This document shows positions 3,481 through 64,000 of a stretch of DNA of 64,000 nt, piece by piece. Within the stretch, counting starts at the first letter, position 1; each line of letters begins with the position of its first letter. A model generated the notes under the pieces. The model saw nothing but the letters and a program-made list of their open reading frames with translations, was not told the origin of the DNA and ran no database searches. The stretch is from Hemerocallis citrina (lineage: Eukaryota > Streptophyta > Magnoliopsida > Asparagales > Asphodelaceae), in NCBI GenBank assembly GCA_017893485.1, contig CM030366.1, forward strand, positions 46,746,283 to 46,810,282, read 5' to 3'. The position numbers and the translations under genes were made by a program.

Positions 3481-4072
3481 TGTTGCCGCTGAATCTGGTG
3501 TGGGGGCAAACAGATAGTATTTGTGGGTTCTTTGGAAAACTGAATAGCAAACCAGTTACCTGTTCCGCCGGAGTTTGACGCTGTCTCCCGCCGCACACCT
3601 GCAAAAAGTACGAGACACCGGGGTTGTTCCCGGCGACGCACCCTCCGACGCTCAAGTCAGTAACCAGAAATGATTATGAAAGAGCACAAAACTGGCAAAA
3701 GATTGATTACCTCTTAATGGAGATGGATGGGGGGTATTTATAGGCGCCGCTGGGATCAGATTAGGAATGTAATCCCTGTGGTTAGATAAGGAATGTAATC
3801 CCTAATCCCCAGTGAAAGGATAGATATGAATCAGGGCCGTTGATTAGGATTAATCAGAAACCCAATTCTATCCTTTCTGGACTGGGCTTGTTGCGGGTTG
3901 GGACCCGCACCCAGTTGAGGTGGATCCGTTCGCGGGTTAGTGGGTCTCCGAGGAGGAGAACCAGTTTCCGCTCCAGACCTATTAGTAGGTGAAATTACCG
4001 TTTTACACCTGGGCTTCAAGATTCGTGCCCGATTTGGACGGTTCCGATTTAACCCCATTTTTAGCCATATCA
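3481..4072 (-). repeat. Tat-like LTR (3' LTR of the minus-strand element)
   Basis: 592 bp running from TGTTGCCGCTGAATC to TTAGCCATATCA, matching 8354-8947 with few differences and 59952-60572 more loosely. The adjoining internal sequence CGAGCCCCCAACTCC gives a purine-rich tract on the minus strand, as expected next to a 3' LTR. Confidence 0.9.
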
Positions 4073-4596
4073 CGAGCCCCCAACTCCTAAAGACTGAGTT
4101 TGATCGGCCTTTGAGGAGTAGTTTTACTGTTTTAATGGCTGGTGGAGTTGTATCAGAGTCCAAGTGGAGGGTTTTGAATCTCGAAGGAGGTAGTGAGATG
4201 ATTTTTCAAGCTGTTCGTTCTCTAAGTTGTTCTTGAGCTTCTCTGGATATCTGGCGGTTTTTATCTATTTTTTCGGATTACTTATTTAACTTTGCGATGT
4301 GTTAACCAGTCGTTCGGGGGTCTTAACAACACATTCTAGGCAATAATTGTTCGTTCAGGGGCTCAAAAATATTTCCCCGAATTCATAATTATTTTCTAGA
4401 ATTTCTAGTTAATTTTCCCGAATTTTTAGTAATTTTTTCGCAATTTTTAAATAAATAAAATGATTAAAATAAATAAAAACTAATTTTTAATACCTATTTA
4501 TGGCGTGGCGCGATCTGGGCCCACTATCAGCGCCGAGTGCGATTTTCTTAGCGATCGGACGATCTGCGTTCTTCGGCAGATAGTTTCTTCGTATGC
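4073..4596 (-). other. Non-coding segment between the 3' LTR and the tandem array
   Basis: The first 150 bases match 60573-60730, the equivalent place in the related element at the right end of the window. They hold the polypurine tract on the minus strand. The remainder is AT-rich with no recognisable gene. Confidence 0.55.
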
Positions 4597-5330
4597 GAGG
4601 GTCGGTTCCACGTCCCCTCGGCTCGGCAGCTCGGCACTTAGCTCGGAATCTGCCGAACTACGTGGCGAGATCCTGAGCGTCCATCTCAGTGCGGATCCCC
4701 AAAAAATGCTATCTTGTCGTTTAGTGAACGTGGCAAGATCTGAGTCGTCCATCACGCCGAGTGCGTTTTTTGACAAGATCCAACGGCTGAGGAGGGTCGG
4801 AGGAATTTTTCTCCATATATGAGGGTCGGTTCCTCGTCTCCTCGGCTCGGAAGCTCGGCGCTTAGCTCGAAATCTGCCGAACTACGTGGCGTGATCCTCA
4901 GCGTCCATCTCAGCGTGGATCCCCAAAAAATGCTATCTTGTCGTTTAATGAACGTGGCAAGATCCACGTCGAGCGCGTTTTTTGACAAGATCCAACGGCT
5001 GAAGAGGGTCGGAGGAATTTTTCTCCATATGTGAGGGTCGGTTCCTCGTCCCCTCTGCTCGGAAGCTCGACACTTAGCTCGGAATCTGCCAAACTACGTG
5101 GCGTGATCCTGAGCGTCCATCTCAGCGTGGATCCCCAAAAAACGCTGTCTTGTCGTTTAGTGAACGTGGCAAGATCTGAGCCGTCCATCACGTCGAGCGC
5201 GTTTTTTGACAAGATCCAACGGCTGAAGAGGGTCGGAGGAATTTTTCTCCATATGTGAGGGTCGGTTCCTCGTCCCCTCGGCTCGGAAGCTCGGCACTTA
5301 GCTCGGAATCTGCCGAACTATGTGGTAAGC
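4597..5330. repeat. Tandem repeat of about 224 bp, three and a third copies
   Basis: The marker GAGGGTCGGTTCC recurs at 4597, 4821, 5033 and 5257, giving spacings of 224, 212 and 224. The 212 unit lacks 12 bases next to GATCCACGTCGAG. Each unit holds GCTCGGaAGCTCGGC, CATCTCAGYGYGGATCCCC and TTTTTTGACAAGATCCAACGG. The array lies between the 3' LTR and the truncated RT, where the relative at 61130-61880 carries a different 58-bp array with similar GGGTCGGT and CTCGGCAGCT cores. Short open frames in it arise from the repeat and are not genes. Confidence 0.85.
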
Positions 5331-5334
5331 TGCA

Positions 5335-6144
5335 GTTCCATGAAGCTGAGGATTTCATGACCCGAAGTGTCATCAATCAGAGTGTCAATACTCGGAAGGG
5401 GAAGGGATCTTTGGGGCAAGCCTTGTTGAGATCGGTAAAATCGATACAAATCCTCCAGGTCCCATTGGACTTTTTCACCATTACCACATTCGACAACCAC
5501 TCGGGATAGTTCACCTCTTGTATGAACTGGGCCTTTAAGAGCTTGTCCACCTCCTGTTTATAGCCAGATGGCGCTCGGGGGCGAACTTGCGCCTCTTCTG
5601 TTGAACCGGTTTTGGACCCCAGAGCAACGCTGAGGTGGTGGACCAAGAGCTCTTCAGAAATTCTGTGCATGTCTGCAGCTGACCAAGCAAAGAGGTCTTG
5701 GTTCCTTCGGATGCACTGGACTATGTCTGAGCATAGGGCGGATGAGAGGGTCTTGCTAACAAAGAACTTTTGGGTTGGATCATGCTCAGAGAAGAGCACT
5801 TCCTCCAATTCATCTACCGGCTCGGACGTTGGTTGGGCAGCATCTTGGGGGATTTCCAGAGTTTCTAGGGAGAGGACTGGACCGAGGGTGGAGGTCATGT
5901 GGCACTTGCGGGTCGTTTCCTGATTGCCTTTTACCTCCCCTACTCCTGCCCGGGTGGGGAACTTCATCTTGAGGTGATAGGTGGAAGGGACGGCTTCAAG
6001 GGCAGTTAGGTCGGGCCGACCCAGAATGACATTGTAAGCTGCAGGAACATCTACGACCATGAAGTCCATCGACTTCGTTCGGGTAGTAGGAGTTTTGCCA
6101 GCGGTTACATCAAGGGTGATCACCCCTTCAATAGTCACTGGCAC
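5335..6144 (-). pseudogene. Ty3 reverse transcriptase, N-terminal part only
   Basis: The frame gives the end of the protease region (DVPAAYNVILGRPDLTAL). It then gives the RT start with KQEVDKLLKAQFIQEVNYPEWLSNVVMVKK and CIDFTDLNKACPKDPFP, typical of the Tat lineage. A frame change near 5430 continues as LPSIDTLIDDTSGHEILSFMEL and then meets the tandem array. The catalytic YxDD block, RNase H and integrase are therefore absent. It shares a reading frame with the gag and protease pieces upstream, as in Tat gag-pol polyproteins. Confidence 0.85.
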
Positions 6145-6189
6145 TCCCGTGAACCCATGGAGCGTGTAGCCGGCGGGCTTGAGTCTGTC

Positions 6190-6501
6190 TCAGGAGAGTT
6201 TTAGGCCTTTGAAAGCGGCGAAGAAGAGGATGTTAACGGAGCTACCATTGTCCACTAGGATCCTCTTCACTTTGAAGTTTGCTATATGGAGATTGATGAT
6301 GAGTGCGTCACAATGGGGGGTGCGGACACCTTCAAGATCTTCGTCTGAGAATGTAACGGGCACTCTAAGGCCTTTAGGAGGAGGGATGGCGCGAACCGAA
6401 TTGACTTCCCTAATGAACTCCTTTCGAGAAGAGTTTGAGGATCCCCCCATTGGGCCCCCATGAATGAGGTGTAGGACACGCTCCTCTTCGAGGTCGGGCA
6501 T
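6190..6501 (-). pseudogene. Retropepsin (aspartic protease) region
   Basis: This 103-residue piece contains FKVKRILVDNGSSVNILF, where DNGSS corresponds to the D-S/T-G active site. It is preceded by a linker with GVRTPHCDALIINLHIANF. It lies in the same frame as gag (right) and RT (left), separated by in-frame stops. It would process the polyprotein if intact. The asparagine in place of S/T is tolerated in several plant Ty3 lineages, so it alone does not prove inactivity. Confidence 0.8.
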
Positions 6502-6675
6502 TTCATCGCGTTCAGGATGCTTATTAGTCCCCTGAGGCGGGGGAGGAAGGTCGGCTCAGTCCTTTCTCACGAACTTGGTCAGCTGCCCCCTCTGGATGAG
6601 GGCTTCTATCTCATTCTTCAAAGCCCGACAATCATTGATGTCATGGCCATGGTCCCGGTGGTAACGGCACCACTT

Positions 6676-8302
6676 CTATTCATCCCTCTTCTTGGCAGGG
6701 GTGTTCATCCTCGGAGAAGGAGGTATGACCCCCTCCTTCTCAACTTCCAATAGAATGGTGGAGACATTGGTAGTGGGAGGAGTAAATTTCTCGAATCTGG
6801 GGGGAGGTCGGCGCTGGCCGCCATTATCCTTCTGGAGCTTCTTGGCTCCTTCCTCTTTTGTTCCCTTTCTCTTAGACCCGGAGGAAGACCCCTCCAAGTT
6901 GGGGCGGTGCTCAGCTTCTTCGGCCCGAATATACTTTTCACTCCGGAGGAGGTCAGAGAAGTTCTATGGGGGTTTCTTGGCGAAGGAGGAGCGGAGGGTG
7001 GAGTTGAGGACATTGGATTGAAATGCTGCTGCAGCGACCGACTGGTTGAGGGATGCTATGGACCTGGCTTCAGCTGTGAACCTTTTCACATAGTATCTCA
7101 GCTTCTCACCCTTCTTCTGGTGGAGGTAGAGTAGCGAAATGCTGGTCTTCTCAGTTCTACGGCTACTCACAAAGTGGGTGACGAAGAGAGTCTCAAACTG
7201 CTCGAAGGAGAATATTGAGGAAGGGGCGAGGCGAGAGTACCATTCTCGAGTTGGGCCCTTGAGAGTTGCGGGGAAGATTTTGCAGAGCAGAGCATCGGAA
7301 GCTTGATGGATGAGCATAAGGGTCTTGAAGCTTTCGATGTGATCAATGGGGTCGGTCTCCCCGAAATAGGTCTCAAATTGAGGGGGCTTGAAGCCGATCG
7401 GTACGGGTGCATCCATTATAGTTCGGGAAAAAGGAGGTCAACTAGGACGGAGGGTCCTTCCTCTAAGCTCTTCTTCTCGGTCTAACTGACCCAAGCACCT
7501 CTCCATTTTGTGGAGACGGCGGTAGACAGCGTCGTCCCTTCGACGGTAATCGGCCGAGCCTCTAGACTCGTCTTTGTACGAGAGAGAGCGGGGGCTACGA
7601 CAACGGTAGCTCCTGGAGCGGCGAGGACTTGGCATATGCCGGGAGTTGCTAGGAGTGGGAGGAGGAGTTGGGAAACGTCGGCGAGGACTTCGGACCGGAG
7701 GAGGAGAGGGAGCCTTTGGAGCATTGGTGTTAGGACGGAGATTGAGAGCTTGTAGGACGGTCGCTTGGAACTACTAGAACTCGGCACGGGTGATTGGTGC
7801 CTCATCGTTCCTAGGCTGCTGCCGACCTGCAGGGGAGTGTGGTCTTCTTCTGTGATGTTCGGGGGACTCTCTCCGCCCCCTTCGGATGGGGGACCTTCTA
7901 TTGTCTCGGCGGTGAGGAGATCGCTCATCCGGACGGTGTTGGCGGGAGGCTCTCTCTCGGACCCGCTTTTCATCCAGACGGCGGTGAAGATCCTCATCCT
8001 TCTGCCGATTGAGGACGATGTTGCGAAGGTCAGAAGCTTGGGGATTGTGGGAGGCCATCGAATCCGAAGAGGCATTGTGGATGGAGACGTGGTTGTTTCT
8101 GCGAGTTGGGGACCTTAGGAGGTTCTTGACTCTGAGGGGGAGGTAGGTCCTGTTGGAGAGGGTCCCCGGCTTGGGGCGGAAGTTGCCCCTGCTGTTGAGT
8201 GGGTTGAGGGGAAACTTCCTGTTGCTGATCGGGGTTGGGTCCTCGGTTGGACCCTCTGGATCTGGCTTTCCTAGGAGGCATGGCTGGAAAAGATCTGTTC
8301 AA
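6676..8302 (-). pseudogene. Ty3 Tat-type gag
   Basis: The region starts with a Q/P-rich leader (8302-8030, MPPRKARSRGSN at 8284) and shifts frame near 8095. It continues as an R-rich segment with MASHNPQASDL. The conserved gag domain follows at 7416-6964: MDAPVPIGFKPPQFETYFGE, DHIESFKTLM, ATLKGPTREWYSRLAPSSI and FVTHFVSSRRTEKTS, typical of Retrotrans_gag (PF03732). The C-terminal part near 6690-6600 reads CRYHRDHGHDINDC, a histidine/cysteine knuckle of Tat gags. Several in-frame stops and one frameshift disable it. Confidence 0.85.
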
Positions 8303-8335
8303 CGGGAAGAGGAGAGGCTGCTATTCGTTAGTTTC

Positions 8336-8350
8336 CCACAGACGGCGCCA
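8336..8350 (-). other. Primer-binding site, Tat-like element
   Basis: Minus-strand TGGCGCCGTCTGTGG begins three bases inside the 5' LTR. TGGCGCC-type sites pair with a tRNA 3' end and are standard in Tat-lineage elements. This fixes the element's orientation. Confidence 0.85.
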
Positions 8351-8353
8351 ATT

Positions 8354-8947
8354 TGTTGCCGCTGAATCTGGTGTGGGGGCAAACAGATAGTATTTGTGGG
8401 TTCTTTGGAAAACTGAATAGCAAATATGTTACCTGTTCCGCCGGAGTTTGACGCTGTCTCCCGCCGTACACCTGCAAAAAGTACGAGACACCGGGGTTGT
8501 TCCCGGCGATGCACCCTCCGACGCTCAAGTCAGTAACCAGAAATGATTATGAAAGAGCGCAAAAATTGGCAAAAGATTGATTACCTCTTAATGGAGATGG
8601 ATGGGGGGTATTTATAGGCGCCGCTAGGATCAGATTAGGAATGTAATCCCTGTGGTTAGATAAGGAATGTAATCCCCAATCTCCAGTGAAATGATAGATA
8701 TGAATCAGGGCCGTTGATTAGGATTAATCAGAAACCCTAATTCTATCCTTTCTGGACCGGGCTTGCTGCGGGTTGGGACCCGCACCCAGTTGAGGTGGAT
8801 CCGTTCGCGGGCTAGTGGGTCTCCGAGGAGAAGAACCAGTACCCGCTCCAGACCTATTAGTAGGTGAAATTACCGTTTTACCCCTGGGCTTCAAGATTCG
8901 TGCCCGATTTGGACGGTGCCGATTTAACCCCATTTTTAGCCATATCA
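8354..8947 (-). repeat. Tat-like LTR (5' LTR of the minus-strand element)
   Basis: 594 bp, TGTTGCCGCT to GCCATATCA. It is nearly identical to 3481-4072 and flanked outside by the GTTAC duplication. It serves as the 5' LTR because the PBS adjoins its left edge. Confidence 0.9.
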
Positions 8948-13200: not shown

Positions 13201-13532
13201 TAAGGGTAGTTAGTGATAGTGGGGGATAGGGGATACAGGAAATTGTGCAATTGAGGAGAATGTGAACAAATTGTATACGGTTGAGTATAAGGGTTTGTGG
13301 GTTTGGGTTTTGGGTTAGATTCCAGTAGGAGATGGGCTAAATTTTGGGCTTCAAAATAAATAAATAAAAAGAAGAGAGACCAGATTCTAGTTTGGGTATA
13401 TATTTGGGTTTCAATAGGAGATTCAAAGGGATTTAAATGCATTGGAAATAATTTATACAGAAAATGAAATACAAGAATACATGGAGAAAAGAAAAAAATT
13501 GGAAATCCGTATAATCAGAAACATGGGTTACA
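10212..13532 (-). repeat. Chromovirus solo LTR, 3321 bp
   Basis: On the plus strand it runs from TGTCACGCCCTGC to ATGGGTTACA, the reverse complement of the TGTAAC...GGGCGTGACA LTR family at 543-9212 and 54827-59521. It is flanked by perfect GCTAC duplications (10207-10211 and 13533-13537). No internal sequence or PBS adjoins it, so it is a solo LTR left by LTR-LTR recombination. It has the family's GC-rich zone (about 12480-13080), a TATA-like region near 13395 and the conserved hairpin. The many open frames in the GC-rich zone are low-complexity and not genes. Confidence 0.92.
12073..12088 (-). other. Conserved small LTR hairpin
   Basis: Minus-strand CGGGATTCTGATCTCG forms a 6-bp stem with one G-U pair. 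It corresponds to the hairpins in three other LTRs of the family. Confidence 0.5.
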
Positions 13533-24449: not shown

Positions 24450-26645
24450 TTCTCAAAATGGCATTTTCTGACAAATTATCTCACAAACACTAATACACCT
24501 CTTTTATGGATTCTACGACCAACCCCATTTTGGTATACATCATCCTTAGATGACAATTAACCCATTTTGGTAAATAGCATTCTTAGATGACAATAATATG
24601 GCTAATATCCAGTATCTAAAACAGTAAAAGAAATGAAAATTTCCACTATCTAAGCATGTTTGTCTATTCTTCATCCCAACTTTGCCAATGATGTTTCCGG
24701 CTCCAAAAGAAACCTGCACACAGGTTTGTTCAGACCAATTCTTGATAGGTTTGGGAATTCTGAAGATTTTAGATACAGGATGAAAAATTATCTCACAAAC
24801 ACTAATACGCCTCTTTCATGGATTCTATAACCAACCCCATTTTGGTATACACCATCCTTAGATGACAATTAACCCATTTTGGTAAATAGCATGCTAAGAT
24901 GACAATGACATGGCTAATATCCAGTATCTAAAACAGTAAAAGAAATGAAAATTTCCAGTATCGAAGCATGTTTGTCTATTCTTCATCCCAACTTTGCCAA
25001 TGATGTTTTTGGCTCCAAAAGAAACCTGCACAAGGTTTGTTCTGACCAATTATTGACAGATTTGGGAATTCTGAAGATTTGAGATCCAGGAAGACAAATT
25101 AGAGCACAAAGAATAATACACCTCCTTCATGGATTCTACGACCAACCCCATTTTGGTATACAGCATCCTTAGATGACAATTAACCCATTTTGGTAAATAG
25201 CATGCTTAGATGACAATGATATGGCTAATATCCAGAATCTAAAACAGTAAAGAAATGAAAATTGTTCAATATCTAAGCATGTTTGTCTATTCTTCATCCC
25301 AAATTTGCCAATGATGTTTCCGGCTCCAAAAGAAACCTGCACACAGGTTTGTTCAGACCAATTCTTGACAGATTTGGGAATTCTGAAGATTTTAGATACA
25401 GGATGAAAAATTATCTCACAAACACTAATACGCCTCTTTCATGGATTCTATAACCAACCCCATTTTGGTATACACCATCCTTAGATGACAATTAACCCAT
25501 TTTGGTAAATAGCATGCTAAGATGACAATGATATGGGTAATATCCAGTATCTAAAACAGTAAAAGAAAGGAAAATTATGTGTAGCTAAGCATGTTTGTCT
25601 ATTCTTCATCCCAACTTTGCCAATGATGTTTCCGGCTCCAAAAGAAACCTGCACACAGGTTTGTTCAGACCAATTCTTGACAGATTTGGAAATTCTGAAG
25701 ATTTTACATCCAGGATGACAAATTAGAGCACAAAGAATAATAAGCCTCTTTCATGGATTCTATGACCAACCCCATTTTGGTATACAGCATCCTTAGATGA
25801 CAATTAACCCATTTTGGTAAATAGCATGCTAAGATGACAATGATATGGCTAATATCCAGTATCTAAAACAGTAAAAGAAATGAAAATTTCCAGTAGCTAA
25901 GCATGTTTGTCTATTCTTCTTCCCAACTTTGCCAATGATGTTTCCGGCTCCAAAAGAAACCTGCACACAGGTTTGTTCAGACCAATTCTTGACAGATTTG
26001 GGAATTCTGAAGATTTTAGATCCAGGATGACAAATTAGAGCACACAGAATAGTACGGCTCTTTCATGGATTCTATGACCAACCCCATTTTGGTATACAAC
26101 ATCCTTAGATGACAATTAACCCATTTTGGTAAATAGCATGCTAAGATGACAATGACATGGCTAATATCCAGTATCTAAAACAGTAAAAGAAATGAAAATT
26201 TCCAGTATCGAAGCATGTTTGTCTATTCTTCATCCCAACTTTGCCAATGATGTTTTTGGCTCCAAAAGAAACCTGCACAAGGTTTGTTCTGACCAATTAT
26301 TGACAGATTTGGGAATTCTGAAGATTTGAGATCCAGGAAGACAAATTAGAGCACAAAGAATAATACACCTCCTTCATGGATTCTACGACCAACCCCATTT
26401 TGGTATACAGCATCCTTAGATGACAATTAACCCATTTTGGTAAATAGCATGCTTAGATGACAATGATATGGCTAATATCCAGAATCTAAAACAGTAAAAG
26501 AAATGAAAATTGTTCAATATCTAAGCATGTTTGTCTATTCTTCATCCCAAATTTGCCAATGATGTTTCCGGCTCCAAAAGAAACCTGCACACAGGTTTGT
26601 TCAGACCAATTCTTGACAGATTTGGGAATTCTGAAGATTTTAGAT
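24450..26645. repeat. CACTA internal repeat unit A, seven direct copies
   Basis: A unit of about 305-315 bp is repeated head to tail. The marker CCCCATTTTGGTATAC occurs near 24525, 24836, 25147, 25459, 25772, 26084 and 26395. Each copy also has CTCCAAAAGAAACCTGCACA and GATTTGGGAATTCTGAAGAT. The copies are only slightly diverged. No coding frame is conserved. Confidence 0.9.
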
Positions 26646-26751
26646 CGATTATTTGATCGAACCGACATTCTAAAGAAAATGCCATTTGGAAGTATGAGGA
26701 TACATGTTTCTTAGATCACCAAAACTCCCATTATTATTGAAGAAAGATAAG

Positions 26752-51471: not shown

Positions 51472-51780
51472 GTGTATTCTTCTCGTACCCATATTCTTTT
51501 TATTCCGGTGTCATCTATTCTTTTCATTTCTGCTCGTTTGGTCGATCAGCATCGCTTGATCTACTACGACTTGTCAGTAGCTTGGAACATCACTAGGAGA
51601 GGAAGTGTCGTCTTTTGCTCCATGGTATGCAAGCAGCGTCTTTTGGTTATTGGTGGTGTTGTTTTTGTTGCCGACTTGATTGTCATCAACAATTTAGGTT
51701 TCGATGTAATCTTGGGGATGGATTGGCTTGGTGTCCCTCGTGCTGTATTTGACTGCAATATGAAGAAGCTGGTATTTTGA
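51472..51780 (+). pseudogene. Protease remnant of the gag-less chromovirus
   Basis: Reads LVDQHRLIYYDLSVAWNI, VFCSMVCKQRLLVIGGVVF and LGFDVILGMDWLGVPRAVF, the C-terminal half of a Ty3 protease. The active-site segment just upstream is frameshifted; in the sister copy at 59810 it reads DSGVIHSF. It shares a frame with the RT downstream, separated by TGA at 51778. No gag precedes it. Confidence 0.85.
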
Positions 51781-59521: not shown

Positions 59522-59951
59522 AGATTTTTGGTATCAGAGCCCGGGTTTGGAGAATATATTAGTCAAACATGACTAACATATGGAAGTTTCACTTTGACTG
59601 ATATATTATTCAGATTTGGGTTTTAACCGGTTTGACTCAATATTATATGCAAAACAGGAATCACATGAATAATTAATAACCGACATTCTGGATACTAGTC
59701 TTCCTTTTGGTCCCTTCATATTTAGTTCATCCATTTCTTATTTTCTTTGTTCCTTGCAGTCGTCCTTATTCATTGATTCCTTATTGGGTATAATTTCATT
59801 CTTCTCATACCCATATTCTTTTGATTCTGGAGTCATCCATTCTTTTCATTTCTGCCCGTTTGGTTGATCGGCATCGCTTAACCTGCTACGACTTGTCAGT
59901 GGCTTGGAACTTCACCAGGAGAGGAAGTGACATCTTTTGCTCCATGGTATG
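59522..59951 (+). mobile_element. Leader and protease fragment of a second gag-less chromovirus copy
   Basis: A tRNA-iMet PBS (59529-59540, TGGTATCAGAGC) follows the LTR. About 250 bases of leader then pass directly into the protease active-site segment at about 59798, which matches 51479-51620 (DSGVIHSF then LSVAWNFTRRGSDIF). No gag intervenes. The sequence is cut at GTATG (59947-59951) by the Tat/Retand-like element. Confidence 0.8.
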
Positions 59952-60572
59952 TGTTGCCGCTAAAATCGGTGTGGGGGCAAACAGATAGAATTTGTGGATT
60001 CTTAGGAAAACTGAATAGCAAACCTGTATACCTGTTCCGTTGGAGTTTGACGCTGACTCCTGCCGTACACCTGCAAAAAGTGCGAGACACCGGGGTTGTT
60101 CCCTCCGACGCACCCTCCGACGCTCAAGTCAGTAATCAGGGAAGATTATGAAAGAGCGCAAAAACTGGCAAAAGATTGATTACCTCTTAATGGAGATGGA
60201 TGGGGGGTATTTATAGGCGTCTTAGGGACTGGATTAGGAATGTAATTCCCGTGATCTGATAAGGAATATTCTCCTTGTAAACAGATTAGGAATGTAATCC
60301 CTAATTCCCAGTGGAAGGATAGGCATGAATCAGGGCCGTTGATTAGGATTTAACCAGGAACCCTAATTCTATCCCTATGGATTGGGCTTTCCGCTGGTTG
60401 AAACCCGCATCCGATTGAGGTGGATCCGTTAGTGGGTTATTGGACCTTTGACGAAAAGATCCAGTACCCATCTCAGACCCATTGGTAGGTGAAATTACCG
60501 TTTTACCCCTGGGCTTCAGGATTCGTGCCCGATTTGGACGGTTCCGATTAAACCCCATTTTTAGCCATATCA
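59952..60572 (-). repeat. Tat/Retand-like 3' LTR
   Basis: 621 bp, TGTTGCCGCTAAAATC to GCCATATCA. It is related to 3481-4072 but with many substitutions and an extra segment near 60255. Confidence 0.88.
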
Positions 60573-61127
60573 CGAGCCCCCCACTCCCGAAGACTGAGCT
60601 TGATCAGCCTTTGAGGAGTAGTTTTACTGTTTTAATGGCTAGTGGAGTTGTATCGGAGCCCAAATGGAAGGTTTTGAATCTTGAATGAGGTAGAGCGGTG
60701 ACTTTTCAAGTGGATTGAACTCTGAGTCACTCCTGAGCTCTCATGGTCGTGTGGTGTTCTCGTAGGAATATCCTTTTAACTTTGCGAAGTGTCAATTCGT
60801 CGTTCGGGGGTCTTAGAAGATTGTTCTTGGCAATAATCGCTTATTTGGGGACTAGAAAATGCTTCCCCACCTCTACAATTGCTTTCCAGGAGTTCTTCCT
60901 TAATTTCCCGAATTTTTAATTGTTTTTTCACGATCTCTTGGTAGACGGCTCGGCCGTTTTCCTTCGTTGTGTGGCCTACATGCTTGTTTCACACTTCTGA
61001 CCCCTTCCAGCGCTCGCTGCCCAGGAGGCCGAGGTCTGTAGGTGGTTCGGCACCTCTTTCCGAAGAGGAGAGGGACCTCGGCTAGGTTGTGAGTGCTGAG
61101 AGGGAGTTCGGCGAAGTCCAAGGTCCA
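60573..61127 (-). other. Non-coding 3' region with polypurine tract
   Basis: The first bases (CGAGCCCCCCACTCCCGAAG) give the minus-strand purine tract. The first 150 bases match 4073-4220. The rest has no recognised gene. Confidence 0.55.
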
Positions 61128-61886
61128 ATCTTTCCACGTAATAGGGTCGGTGCCAAGAGCGCTCGGCAGCTAGTGTCGAACCCCAATTTTTCCCCGTAAC
61201 GGGGGTCGGTGTCAAGAGCGCTCGGCAACTGGTGTCGAACCCCAACTTTTCCTCGTAACAGGGTCGGTGTCAAGAGCGCTCGGTAGCTTGTGCCGAACCC
61301 CAATTTTTTCCCGTAACAGGGTCGGTGTCAAGAGCGTTCGGCAGCTGGTGCTGAACCCCAATTTTTTGCCGTAACGGGGTCGGTGTCAAGAGCGCTCGGT
61401 AGCTGGTGCCGAACCCCAACATTTCCCCGTAACAGGGTCAGTGTCAAGAGCGCTCGACAGCTGGTGCCGAACCCCAATTTTTCCCCATAACGAGGTCGGT
61501 GTCAAGAGCGCTCGGCAGCGGGTGCCGAACCCCAACTTTTCCCCGTAACAGGGTCGGTGTCAAGAGCGCTCAGCAGCTGGTGCCGAACCCCAATTTTTCC
61601 CCGTAACGGGGTCGGTGTCAAGAGCGCTCGGCAGCTGGTGCCGAACCCCAATTTTTCCCCGTAACGGGGTCGGTGTCAAGAGCGCTCGGCAGCTGATGCC
61701 GAACCCCAATTTTTCCCCGTAACGGGGTCGGTGTCAAGAGCGCTCGGCATCTGGTGCCGAACCCCAATTTTTCCCCGTAACGGGGTCGGTGTCAAGAGCG
61801 CTCGGCAGCTGGTGCCGAACCCCAATTTTTCCCCATAACGGGGTCGGTGTCAAGAGCGCTCGGCAGCTGGTGCCGAGGTCCAAGAC
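61128..61886. repeat. 58-bp tandem repeat, thirteen copies
   Basis: The GGGTCGGTG marker (or a one-base variant) occurs thirteen times from 61144 to about 61841 at about 58-bp spacing. Each unit contains three dyads: CCCCGTAACGGGG, GAGCGCTC and CGGCAGCTGGTGCCG. Copies in the right half are almost identical, which suggests recent amplification. It lies between the 3' LTR and the antisense gene promoter. Confidence 0.92.
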
Positions 61887-62120
61887 TTGGCATTTTTGGC
61901 CTAGGATGCACTGCGGGGTTGGTGGCTTCTGCGCAGCTGGCAGACGTGGCAGTCATTAAATGTGATGGCTTCTGAACCTCTGACAGCTCTGACGGATGAG
62001 ATGCTCATTTAATGCTGTGACCTCTGAGCTTCTGTCAGATGAGACTGTAATTAATGCGATGTACGGCTTGATGTGGTAAACAAGGCGACGATTGAGGTCG
62101 CTGTTGTCGTTTTGTGTGAA
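61887..62120 (+). other. Upstream region of the antisense gene
   Basis: Non-coding. It contains two related phrases, about 60 bases apart, with the words TTAATG and CTTCTG (near 61955 and 62010). Probably part of the promoter. Confidence 0.4.
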
Positions 62121-62174
62121 TGGGCCGGTAGTACAGGCCCATTAACCTCGTTTGGCGCACCTCTCTCTATAAAA
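62121..62174 (+). promoter_or_regulatory. Promoter of the antisense gene: site II pair and TATA box
   Basis: TGGGCC (62121-62126) and GGCCCA (62136-62141) form an inverted pair of the plant site II motif, which TCP-type factors bind. TATAAAA follows at 62168-62174, about 170 bases before the ATG. A C-run and a pyrimidine-rich leader come next. The spacing is that of an ordinary plant promoter. Activity is inferred. Confidence 0.6.
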
Positions 62175-62336
62175 CCTCACCCCCCCCCCCTCCTTTCATT
62201 TTTCACTTCTCCTCTCTTTTGCTCAGGCGATCTTTTGTGCTAAGCGAGTGTTTCCGGTGGTCAAGGTTCGTTTTCTGGTGAAGTTTCCGGCAGCTAATCT
62301 TTTAAGGTAACTTATACTCATTTTACTTCATAAACT

Positions 62337-64000
62337 ATGTCTCTTGCTTCTGTCTCCGAGTCGACCTCTTGGTCCGAGCCCTCCATTGAAGTTGTCAAAG
62401 ATCGTACTCCAAACAAGGGCAAGAAGGTGTTCGGCAAAGATTCGATTGTGGAGGATCCGAAGCATATGGGAGAGTTCGGAAGATTGTCGGGGCAGCTGAC
62501 TGGGCTTCACAGAGTTCGAGAGCTTCCGGAGGATCAAGCCGAGCGAATTGTTCACGGGAGGGGGAGGTCCTTCGAGGAGAATGCAGCGAGGGAGACGACG
62601 GAGGCGGACGAGACGGTGTCGATCCTTCGCGAAGAGGACTTGGGAGTGATCCGTGACTATTTCCAGATCCCGGAGGAGTACGAGCTTATGCTGCCGGGTC
62701 CCGGGGTTAGGGCCAACTCACCGCTGCCAGTGACCATGTGTTGCTGGCCGGATGACGCCTTTATCGCCGGGGCTCGGCTACCTCTCCATCCGTTCGCTAT
62801 CCTCGTCCTGAGTTGGTTCGGGGTCAGCCCCATCCAACTCATGCCGAATGCATGGAGAGTCATAAACGGCCTCGTACTTCACTGCCAAGCCGTTGGGATC
62901 GAGCCGGAGCTGAACGTGCTTCGGACAATCTATCGGCTACACCAAGGGAATAAGTCGGAGTACCAATACTATTTGGCTCCGAGGATGGTGGCAGGCTCAT
63001 CATATGCCCCGACTCCATCAAGCACTGGCGTGAAAAGTACTTGATAATGCAGAGTCCGGAGGCCTGGCCGATCCCCTCCGGTTGGGTGGAAGGGGTGCCG
63101 AAGAGGGTGAGGGCGCTGCCCAAGCTTCATCCTGAAGAAGAAGAGGCAGTTCGGACACTTCTCGATCGGCCGAAGTATGATTGGAAGGAGCTGACCGAGG
63201 ACATCTTGTTCAAGGGAGGGCTCTGCCATGTAGATCCCAGTACGCGGCTTCTTTTATGGTTTGTTTTTCATATTTTATTTTGCACGAGTTGTATAGCGCT
63301 AACGAACTTTGTCTTTAATGTAGAAGCGATGGACTACGACGCGGTGCTAGCTTTGAGGGCAGGCCTCGCCAGTAAGGCGCCGAAGAAGCGCAAGAGGGTG
63401 GCCACCAAGTTGCCGACCCCAAAGACTCCGAGGGTCACGGAGACGATCGAGGAGACGGAGACCCTCAGTAGCCCGGTCGTTGTCGGTGGCGGCGCCTCGA
63501 CATCGAATGCGGTCGGAGAGTTCCCCATCGCCGCAGCCCTCGGGATGACGACATCGCCGCTGTCAGTGGCGGCCGAGGAGCTCCTGACCAAGGAGCATAG
63601 GAGGATCCATATTCCAGACTGGCAAGTTCGGAAGCATGATGGATTCCTCGGCAATTCCTTGGCGAGCATGCAGGCCGTCAAGCATCTGGCGGCGTCGAAG
63701 GATCGCGCTGCCATGGAGGCCGGGCAAGAAGGTGACGACGTTATCGAGATCGCTCGCTCGGCCGTTTCGGTAAGTATTGGATTTCTGCCGTCGTTGAATT
63801 TCTTTAGCTATAATTCTTCTAACTCTTTTGGTTCTTCTTTCCTTGTCGCAGATCATTGTCCATTTTGGACACCTCACCGAGAGGCTGGCGGCTCTGGAAA
63901 AGGATCTGAAGCAGGAGTCCGACCAGGCTCGAAAAGAGAAAGCTTGGATGGGGAACGAGCTCGACAAGGTCAGGGTCGAGTTCGAAGGGAAGGCGGCGAG
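62337..64000 (+). CDS. Spliced antisense gene of the Tat/Retand-like element (Transposase_28-like), 3' end outside window
   Basis: The ATG at 62337 follows a pyrimidine-rich leader. Exon 1 has an acidic N-terminus. It then gives LGVIRDYFQIPEEYELMLPG, LHPFAILVLSWFGVSPIQLM, NAWRVINGLVLHC and LNVLRTIYRLHQGNKSEYQY, a pattern matching the putative gypsy-type transposon domain PF04195. A one-base loss near 62982 shifts the frame, after which IICPDSIKHWREKYLIM and PSGWVEGVPKRVRALPKLH continue the domain. Introns at 63240-63323 and 63770-63851 keep the frame. Exon 2 carries a nuclear-localisation-like KAPKKRKRV. Exon 3 begins a charged coiled coil (LTERLAALEKDLKQE). The role of this family is unknown. 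The direction is opposite to the element's gag-pol. Confidence 0.75.
63240..63323 (+). other. Intron 1 of the antisense gene
   Basis: 84 bp, GTACGCGG...TTTAATGTAG, T-rich. Splicing joins DP to KAMDYDAVLALRAGL in frame, and the unspliced sequence loses base-composition continuity. Confidence 0.7.
63770..63851 (+). other. Intron 2 of the antisense gene
   Basis: 82 bp with a consensus GTAAGT donor and a TTGTCGCAG acceptor, T-rich between. Splicing joins IARSAVS to IIVHFGHLTERLA in frame. Confidence 0.85.

Follow-up and report, generated by a model that had tools for sequence, protein, structure and literature searches.

A probable spliced protein gene opposite to gag-pol in a Retand-lineage LTR retrotransposon of Hemerocallis citrina

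Can an LTR retrotransposon keep a protein gene with spliceosomal introns, and what might such a gene do for the element? The question is raised by the right end of a 64,000-nucleotide stretch of Hemerocallis citrina DNA (the window, C9:46746283-46810282 of a 3.78-Gb genome; DNA beyond its right end is given in L009 positions, which equal the window coordinate minus 64000). A first-pass annotation, made from the letters alone, had proposed that a Tat/Retand-like retrotransposon carries here an antisense gene with introns and a promoter of its own. Judged by sequence comparison, both the lineage and an antisense, intron-containing gene with its own conserved promoter motifs are supported.

The right element, whose sense is the − strand, has a 3' LTR at 59952..60572 (−) that matches the 5' LTR of a left element at 83% in BLAST (88.8% of aligned bases with gaps excluded). 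From there the order is LTR, polypurine tract, subterminal zone, 58-bp array and antisense gene: the tract and subterminal zone adjoin the LTR at 60573..60602 (−), a purine-rich end common to the left element, and the tandem array (58-bp unit x 12.9, 61125..61876) lies upstream of the antisense promoter. On the pol side, behind the gene, lies a further array (113 bp x 12.3, L009:1918-3322), and the gene is flanked by the two. The left element, at 3481-8947 (−), is an internally deleted element of the same kind with LTRs that are 96.8% identical, a 5-bp target duplication (GTTAC), a PBS-like stretch behind its 5' LTR, a gag with PF03732 (1.1e-12) and a partial pol. It holds a 224-bp array at 4584-5325 and has no antisense gene. 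As the left and right elements point the same way, gag-pol of the right one is expected on the − strand. A short core may be common to the 58-bp and 224-bp arrays; the likeness is weak, its score being reached by 8 of 1,000 shuffles for one unit and by 98 of 1,000 for two others. Elsewhere in the window, seven tandem units of 312 bp, which themselves contain 37-bp repeats, occupy 24469-26646, and a 92% match between the element flank (59902-59951) and 51580-51629 suggests insertion into a copy of another repeat.

Two sets of copies were compared with the window. The first comprises 40 sister copies (window included; subfamily A) scored out of 7722 loose candidates, with a 90-100% match over nearly all of 1880 bases; the 39 others were taken with 1.7 kb beyond and aligned with the window. 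Because they were found with the gene's own DNA, introns included, these copies say nothing about the frequency of the gene among elements, and copies without introns would be under-represented. The second set was found with the pol of the left element, which gave 16427 loose candidates, of which 40 were scored; 8 of the 40 listed places were used. All eight of these pol-found relatives carry the antisense gene, its exons in unchanged order to the extent that the pieces match, which answers in favour of the gene the presence test that the first-pass annotation had proposed. They fall into subfamilies B (L054, L055, L056, L058) and C (L052, L053, L057, L059). The 58-bp array was detected in seven of eight copies examined (the window's own counted) and not in the eighth; this copy, L002, is 95% identical over the gene with no 58-bp array within 1.5 kb upstream, so the array may be dispensable for retention of the gene.

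The strand relation can be read from sister copies whose pol is preserved. On C8 the antisense gene is on + and pol on − (L051 region), on C4 the gene is on − and pol on +, and in both pol lies at the expected distance on the opposite strand with RVT_1, RNase H, RVT_3 and rve domains; the stretch near a third copy, on C649 (L049), is other DNA with no recognisable pol. L051 carries RVT_1, RT_RNaseH and RVT_3 (PF13456, E = 1.2e-15), followed by an rve match below its cut-off, while rve is above the cut-off in L050. We take PF13456 in L051 to be the additional RNase H (aRH). The Tat/Retand lineage has such an aRH between RH and INT (PMC6317226, cited in part). Two further lineage traits are present: an antisense 3' PF04195 ORF, with L050 and L051 showing pol on the other strand, and tandem arrays between pol and the 3' LTR, here the 58-bp and 113-bp arrays that flank the gene; arrays in this place are reported for about half of Retand clusters. 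Antisense TRP28 (PF04195) ORFs are described in all but two Retand clusters of a flowering-plant survey, of which parts are cited here (Vicient 2025, PMC11963269) and which counts, over 63 clusters, 104 antisense ORFs of which 57 have TRP28, predicts DNA-binding capacity for the TRP28 ORFs and finds tandem arrays frequent. PF04195 has also been reported in 23% of Retand elements (Neumann 2019, PMC6317226). The antisense PF04195 gene itself is a known Retand trait (PMC11963269).

The gene would start from motifs of its own. An inverted site II pair at 62121..62141 (+; TGGGCC at 62121, GGCCCA at 62136) is followed by a TATA box at 62168..62173 (+), and the ATG at 62337 is the first after the TATA box. 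Such a set occurs in none of 2,000 dinucleotide shuffles of 61881-62336, and the 64 kb contain one further site II/TATA set, at 13333. Across the 40 copies the first site II reads TGGGCY in 38 and the second GGCCCA in 35, the TATA motif TCTATAAA is kept in 37 and the ATG in all 40. In the older subfamilies the inverted pair lies upstream in 4/4 B and 3/4 C copies and the exact TATA motif in 4/4 B and 0/4 C copies. The site II pair and TATA box named in the first-pass annotation were correctly placed and are rare in shuffles; like the ATG, they are conserved across copies.

Exon 1 (62337..63239, +) encodes a PF04195 (Transposase_28 / TRP28) domain at 62754..62942 (+), which the first-pass annotation had called PF04195-like and which a profile search confirms (E = 1.2e-12; 48.2 bits in the ATG frame against a cut-off of 26.2). 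The continuous product proposed with it is not one open frame in this copy: a one-base deletion downstream of the domain breaks exon 1, the ATG frame meets a TGA at 63042 and the remainder of the exon is in another frame. The deletion is private to the window copy, being absent in 39/39 others, and exon 1 is open in 22/40 copies. The window copy cannot make the whole protein because its exon 1 changes frame after the domain. For an intron bridging the frameshift there are 160 formal candidates, and the best-scoring one would remove the domain; the idea was rejected because no other copy has the shift. No X-XXY-YYZ heptamer of the kind used in programmed frameshifting occurs within 62901-63060.

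The next two exons are separated by short GT-AG introns, which the first-pass annotation had placed exactly. Intron 1 (63240..63323, +) has 84 nt and phase 1, with GT in 38/40 and AG in 38/39 copies, and intron 2 (63770..63851, +) has 82 nt and phase 0, with each end held in 38/40. Exon 2 (63324..63769, +) contains, as had been noted, the basic motif KAPKKRKRV (63374..63400, +), a pattern that we take to be NLS-like; in its coding DNA one 20-base stretch is identical in 27/40 copies, and the seven commonest forms listed cover 35/40. Exon 3 begins at 63852..64000 (+) and runs past the window to L009:427. The coiled coil of the first-pass annotation fared less well: the reading frame of exon 3 is rich in charged residues and has few G and P, but 217 of 2,000 shuffles reach its heptad score, which is therefore weak.

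Base composition and splice signals differ in what they contribute. GC content is 0.345 and 0.366 in introns 1 and 2 against 0.56-0.63 in the exons, of all separate 83-nt windows in the gene the two poorest in GC fall in these introns, which are T-rich and show no codon bias, and third-position GC is 0.67-0.77 in exons against 0.31-0.33 in introns. Among 86 GTs the donor of intron 2 ranks first and that of intron 1 21st. A pair as good as intron 2 arises in 87/200 shuffles (8/200 with low GC added), so splice-site scores by themselves are no evidence and the case rests on the comparison of copies. Both splice ends are right in 36/40 copies for each of introns 1, 2 and 3; GT or AG pairs chosen arbitrarily within the three introns hold at a mean rate of 0.66-0.92, and the conservation count by itself is modest evidence because many single arbitrary GTs or AGs hold equally well.

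Length and frame say more. Intron 2 measures 82, 83, 84 and 86 nt in 23, 14, 2 and 1 of the 40 copies, and none of the 40 stays open if it is retained. Within the 40-copy family intron 1 could pass for coding, given its near-constant length (84 nt in 39/40) and few in-frame stops (1/1078 codons, as rare as in exons), and all eight copies that are open over three exons stay open with it too. Its retention is rejected on the older relatives, where intron 1 has 92 nt in subfamily B and separates exons that lie in different frames, and has 88-91 nt in subfamily C, against 84 nt here; splicing is thus needed to keep the frame. The relatives have a GTACGC donor for intron 1 in 8/8 and its AG end in 7/8. 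A rival donor at 63259 scores better and was discarded, being present in 1/40 copies. Intron 2 spans 82-87 nt in 7/8 relatives measured (L055 is without its start), with GTAAGT in four and ATAAGT in three (L058, L052 and L053), the latter by decay or as a tolerated change.

The gene appears to continue beyond the window. The exon 3 frame runs on to a stop at L009:437-439, and a second open frame spans L009:610-1581. A predicted intron 3 (L009:428-660, +; 233 nt), with GT at 428 in 37/38 copies and AG at 659-660 in 39/40, both in phase 0, would join exon 3 to the second frame as exon 4 (L009:661-1581, +). Like introns 1 and 2, the intron 3 stretch is present in 40/40 copies; its acceptor is the same in 4/4 B copies and a phase-0 acceptor is found in 4/4 C copies. 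The first-pass annotation therefore had the first part of the gene right and its extent too short, the gene being longer by a third intron and a fourth, coiled-coil-like exon. The first 70 codons of exon 4 have a dN/dS of 0.40, against 0.90 and 0.96 in the shifted frames, and look read as a continuation for that reason. We consider the four-exon form likely on this evidence.

The strongest competing explanation divides the locus into two antisense genes, one behind the other: the first, with three exons and TRP28, would end at L009:437-439, and the second, coding for a coiled coil, would occupy exon 4 and have a leader and start of its own. The stop at L009:437-439 agrees with this, being kept in 37/40 A, 4/4 B and 4/4 C copies, as does an AATAAA or AATGAAA block after it in 7/7 aligned sequences, and the consulted part of the survey lists several antisense ORFs (PMC11963269). 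The window element, however, has no ATG in the first 70 codons of exon 4, which are equally constrained (7/40 copies have one there), and a phase-0 acceptor lies at the edge of exon 4 in three subfamilies, with a phase-0 donor three codons before the stop. Two genes are therefore unlikely, and we keep to one gene with four exons.

The same conserved features may have another use within the single gene. After the intron 3 donor, all three subfamilies read V-x-P-stop, and in subfamily A the three codons that separate donor from stop all show their greatest variation at the third position. Inside the intron, about 50 bases (L009:483-530) form a block that is conserved in all seven aligned sequences (1 A, 2 B, 4 C), namely in L052-L054, L056, L057 and L059 as well as the window element, across subfamilies with proteins about 40% identical; its end reads AATGAAA in A and B and AATAAA in C, and much of the remaining intron is unconserved. 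We infer that this block could be the polyadenylation region of a short form. The whole set of donor 3, stop, block and acceptor recurs in three subfamilies, of which one has a protein only about 40% identical to the others. A conserved choice at intron 3 between two proteins is conceivable, at slightly less than an even chance: polyadenylation inside the intron would give a short TRP28-NLS protein with an acidic tail, and splicing would add the second coiled-coil exon. The model predicts an isoform switch. If it is true, a retrotransposon would carry a complete, alternatively processed gene that could be preserved only on the antisense strand.

Selection on the protein was estimated from dN/dS ratios, pairwise and pooled over copies, with gap or stop codons set aside. 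In frame, the ratio is 0.29 for exon 1 up to the shift, 0.28 for the PF04195 domain, 0.40 for the rest of exon 1, 0.23 for exon 2, 0.34 for exon 3 and 0.41 for exon 4; the shifted frames, run for the first part of exon 1 and for exons 2, 3 and 4, give 0.90-1.34. The first-pass annotation had named a ratio near 1 across copies as counting against the gene; at 0.23-0.41 in frame the gene stands. For intron 1 the value is 0.64 within wide limits (0.29-2.09), and dN/dS can be biased in T-rich stretches, as intron 3 is also low in two of its three frames (0.46-0.57). Polymorphisms carried by at least four copies have nonsynonymous to synonymous ratios per site of 0.20, 0.39, 0.15, 0.22 and 0.30 over five exon parts; singletons have 0.60, 0.53, 0.85, 0.87 and 1.21 over the same parts, with those in two or three copies omitted. 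Shared polymorphisms mostly arose while the family replicated, and singletons mostly after insertion. The stronger constraint on the shared class suggests that the protein mattered during replication and decays in resting copies. Open frames persist in 8/40 copies over three exons and 5/40 over four (5/40 and 2/40 with intact GT-AG as well). As judged from these patterns every exon is under purifying selection, strongest in changes common to several copies, and a spliced, selected protein gene is almost certainly present.

Could the element instead have captured a host gene by transduction, the introns being kept since capture was antisense? The introns and the site II/TATA promoter look host-like. 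The gene is, however, in all eight pol-found relatives, four of which have proteins only about 30-55% identical, and the consulted part of the flowering-plant survey gives a TRP28 ORF in all but two Retand clusters (PMC11963269), so that capture is improbable as an account of this gene; an ancient capture before the lineage spread is possible. The divergence is graded: in subfamily B the protein is mostly 74-85% identical and the array is 58-bp-like, and in subfamily C the protein is 30-55% identical over exons 1 and 4, with exon 2 pieces at 34 to 73% and a match to the 224-bp array of the left element. PF04195 is found in 5/5 of the relatives' exon 1 proteins scanned. Least probable of all is that the antisense RNA is the functional product, controlling gag-pol through dsRNA or siRNA with the protein incidental: the gene is opposite to the element's RNA and antisense transcripts can act so (PMC7264820, cited in part), but protein-level selection on all exons is needless for a regulatory RNA, which may act in addition to the protein.

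What remains is at sequence level a gene with promoter motifs, four coding exons and three introns at conserved positions. Our preferred reading, which we regard as reasonably probable, is that a Retand-lineage LTR retrotransposon has here, between pol and its 3' LTR, a spliced accessory gene that runs antisense to gag-pol and encodes a nuclear protein acting on the element. Site II motifs serve proliferation genes. Host RNA polymerase II would transcribe the antisense gene from its own site II/TATA promoter, probably most in dividing cells in view of those motifs, and the host spliceosome would remove the introns. The introns would survive because the RNA that is reverse-transcribed is the sense RNA, in which they are reversed and unspliceable. 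The protein, with its TRP28 domain, basic NLS-like motif and coiled coils, would enter the nucleus, bind DNA, probably as an oligomer, and regulate transcription or integration of the element. We put a nuclear DNA-binding role at even odds. Binding of the arrays by the protein is a conjecture, as one of eight copies has no detected 58-bp array and the array type changes between subfamilies.

Database and structure searches added little to this picture. Pfam gave nothing above cut-offs in exons 2, 3 and 4, with sub-threshold coiled-coil families the only hits in exon 4. A protein database returned no relatives of 62337-62996 (E 0.001) or 62996-63769 (E 0.01); a gag control search there found one protein, so plant elements seem hardly covered in it. 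There were no matches in viral_contigs, genome_contigs, NCBIfam or PDB sequences. Structure models reached pLDDT 33 and 36, too poor for a fold search, and DNA binding rests on the published prediction for that reason.

The comparison suggests that Retand-type elements use a spliced accessory protein. If the antisense ORFs belong as exons to a single spliced gene, surveys based on ORFs may have tallied its parts (104 ORFs in the part of PMC11963269 cited here), and the exon model defines a protein for expression and testing. The gene would also show a route by which spliceosomal introns are retained for long in a retroelement. The literature searched, which does not extend to the 2013 Grande gene23 paper and the 2011 extra-ORF survey, gave no description of introns in the antisense PF04195 gene, and neither PMC11963269 nor PMC7264820 uses the word intron in its main text. 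Attention to antisense and spliced transcripts of such elements has been called for (Vicient and Casacuberta 2020, PMC7264820, cited in part).

Among known systems, the closest are the Retand TRP28 ORFs in the consulted parts of PMC11963269, which share place between pol and 3' LTR, orientation and domain, and often lie beside tandem arrays; they are ORF Finder predictions, whereas here the ORFs appear as exons of one gene with conserved introns. ORF4 of Silene Retand is likewise antisense with pfam04195 (PMC7264820, in part), in an element with an amplified tandem repeat. For gene23 of maize Grande, an accessory gene that also lies antisense between pol and the 3' LTR, a promoter of its own and a product found in the nucleus are reported (PMC7264820, in part). 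The likeness to gene23 is one of description; what the present gene has in this respect are conserved promoter motifs and an NLS-like motif. HBZ of HTLV-1 is an antisense nuclear accessory protein of a retro-element, an analogy named in the part of PMC11963269 cited here and not a claim of sequence kinship; its antisense promoter lies in the 3' LTR, unlike here. The first-pass annotation had held that a retrotransposon can keep introns only in genes antisense to its genomic RNA, which is too strong: Ogre and EVADE have sense introns (PMC12786077) and Bagy2 is spliced on the sense strand (PMC7264820), as reported in the parts cited. These plant LTR retrotransposons also use splicing, but their introns are lost from the spliced sense RNA, whereas the introns described here are antisense.
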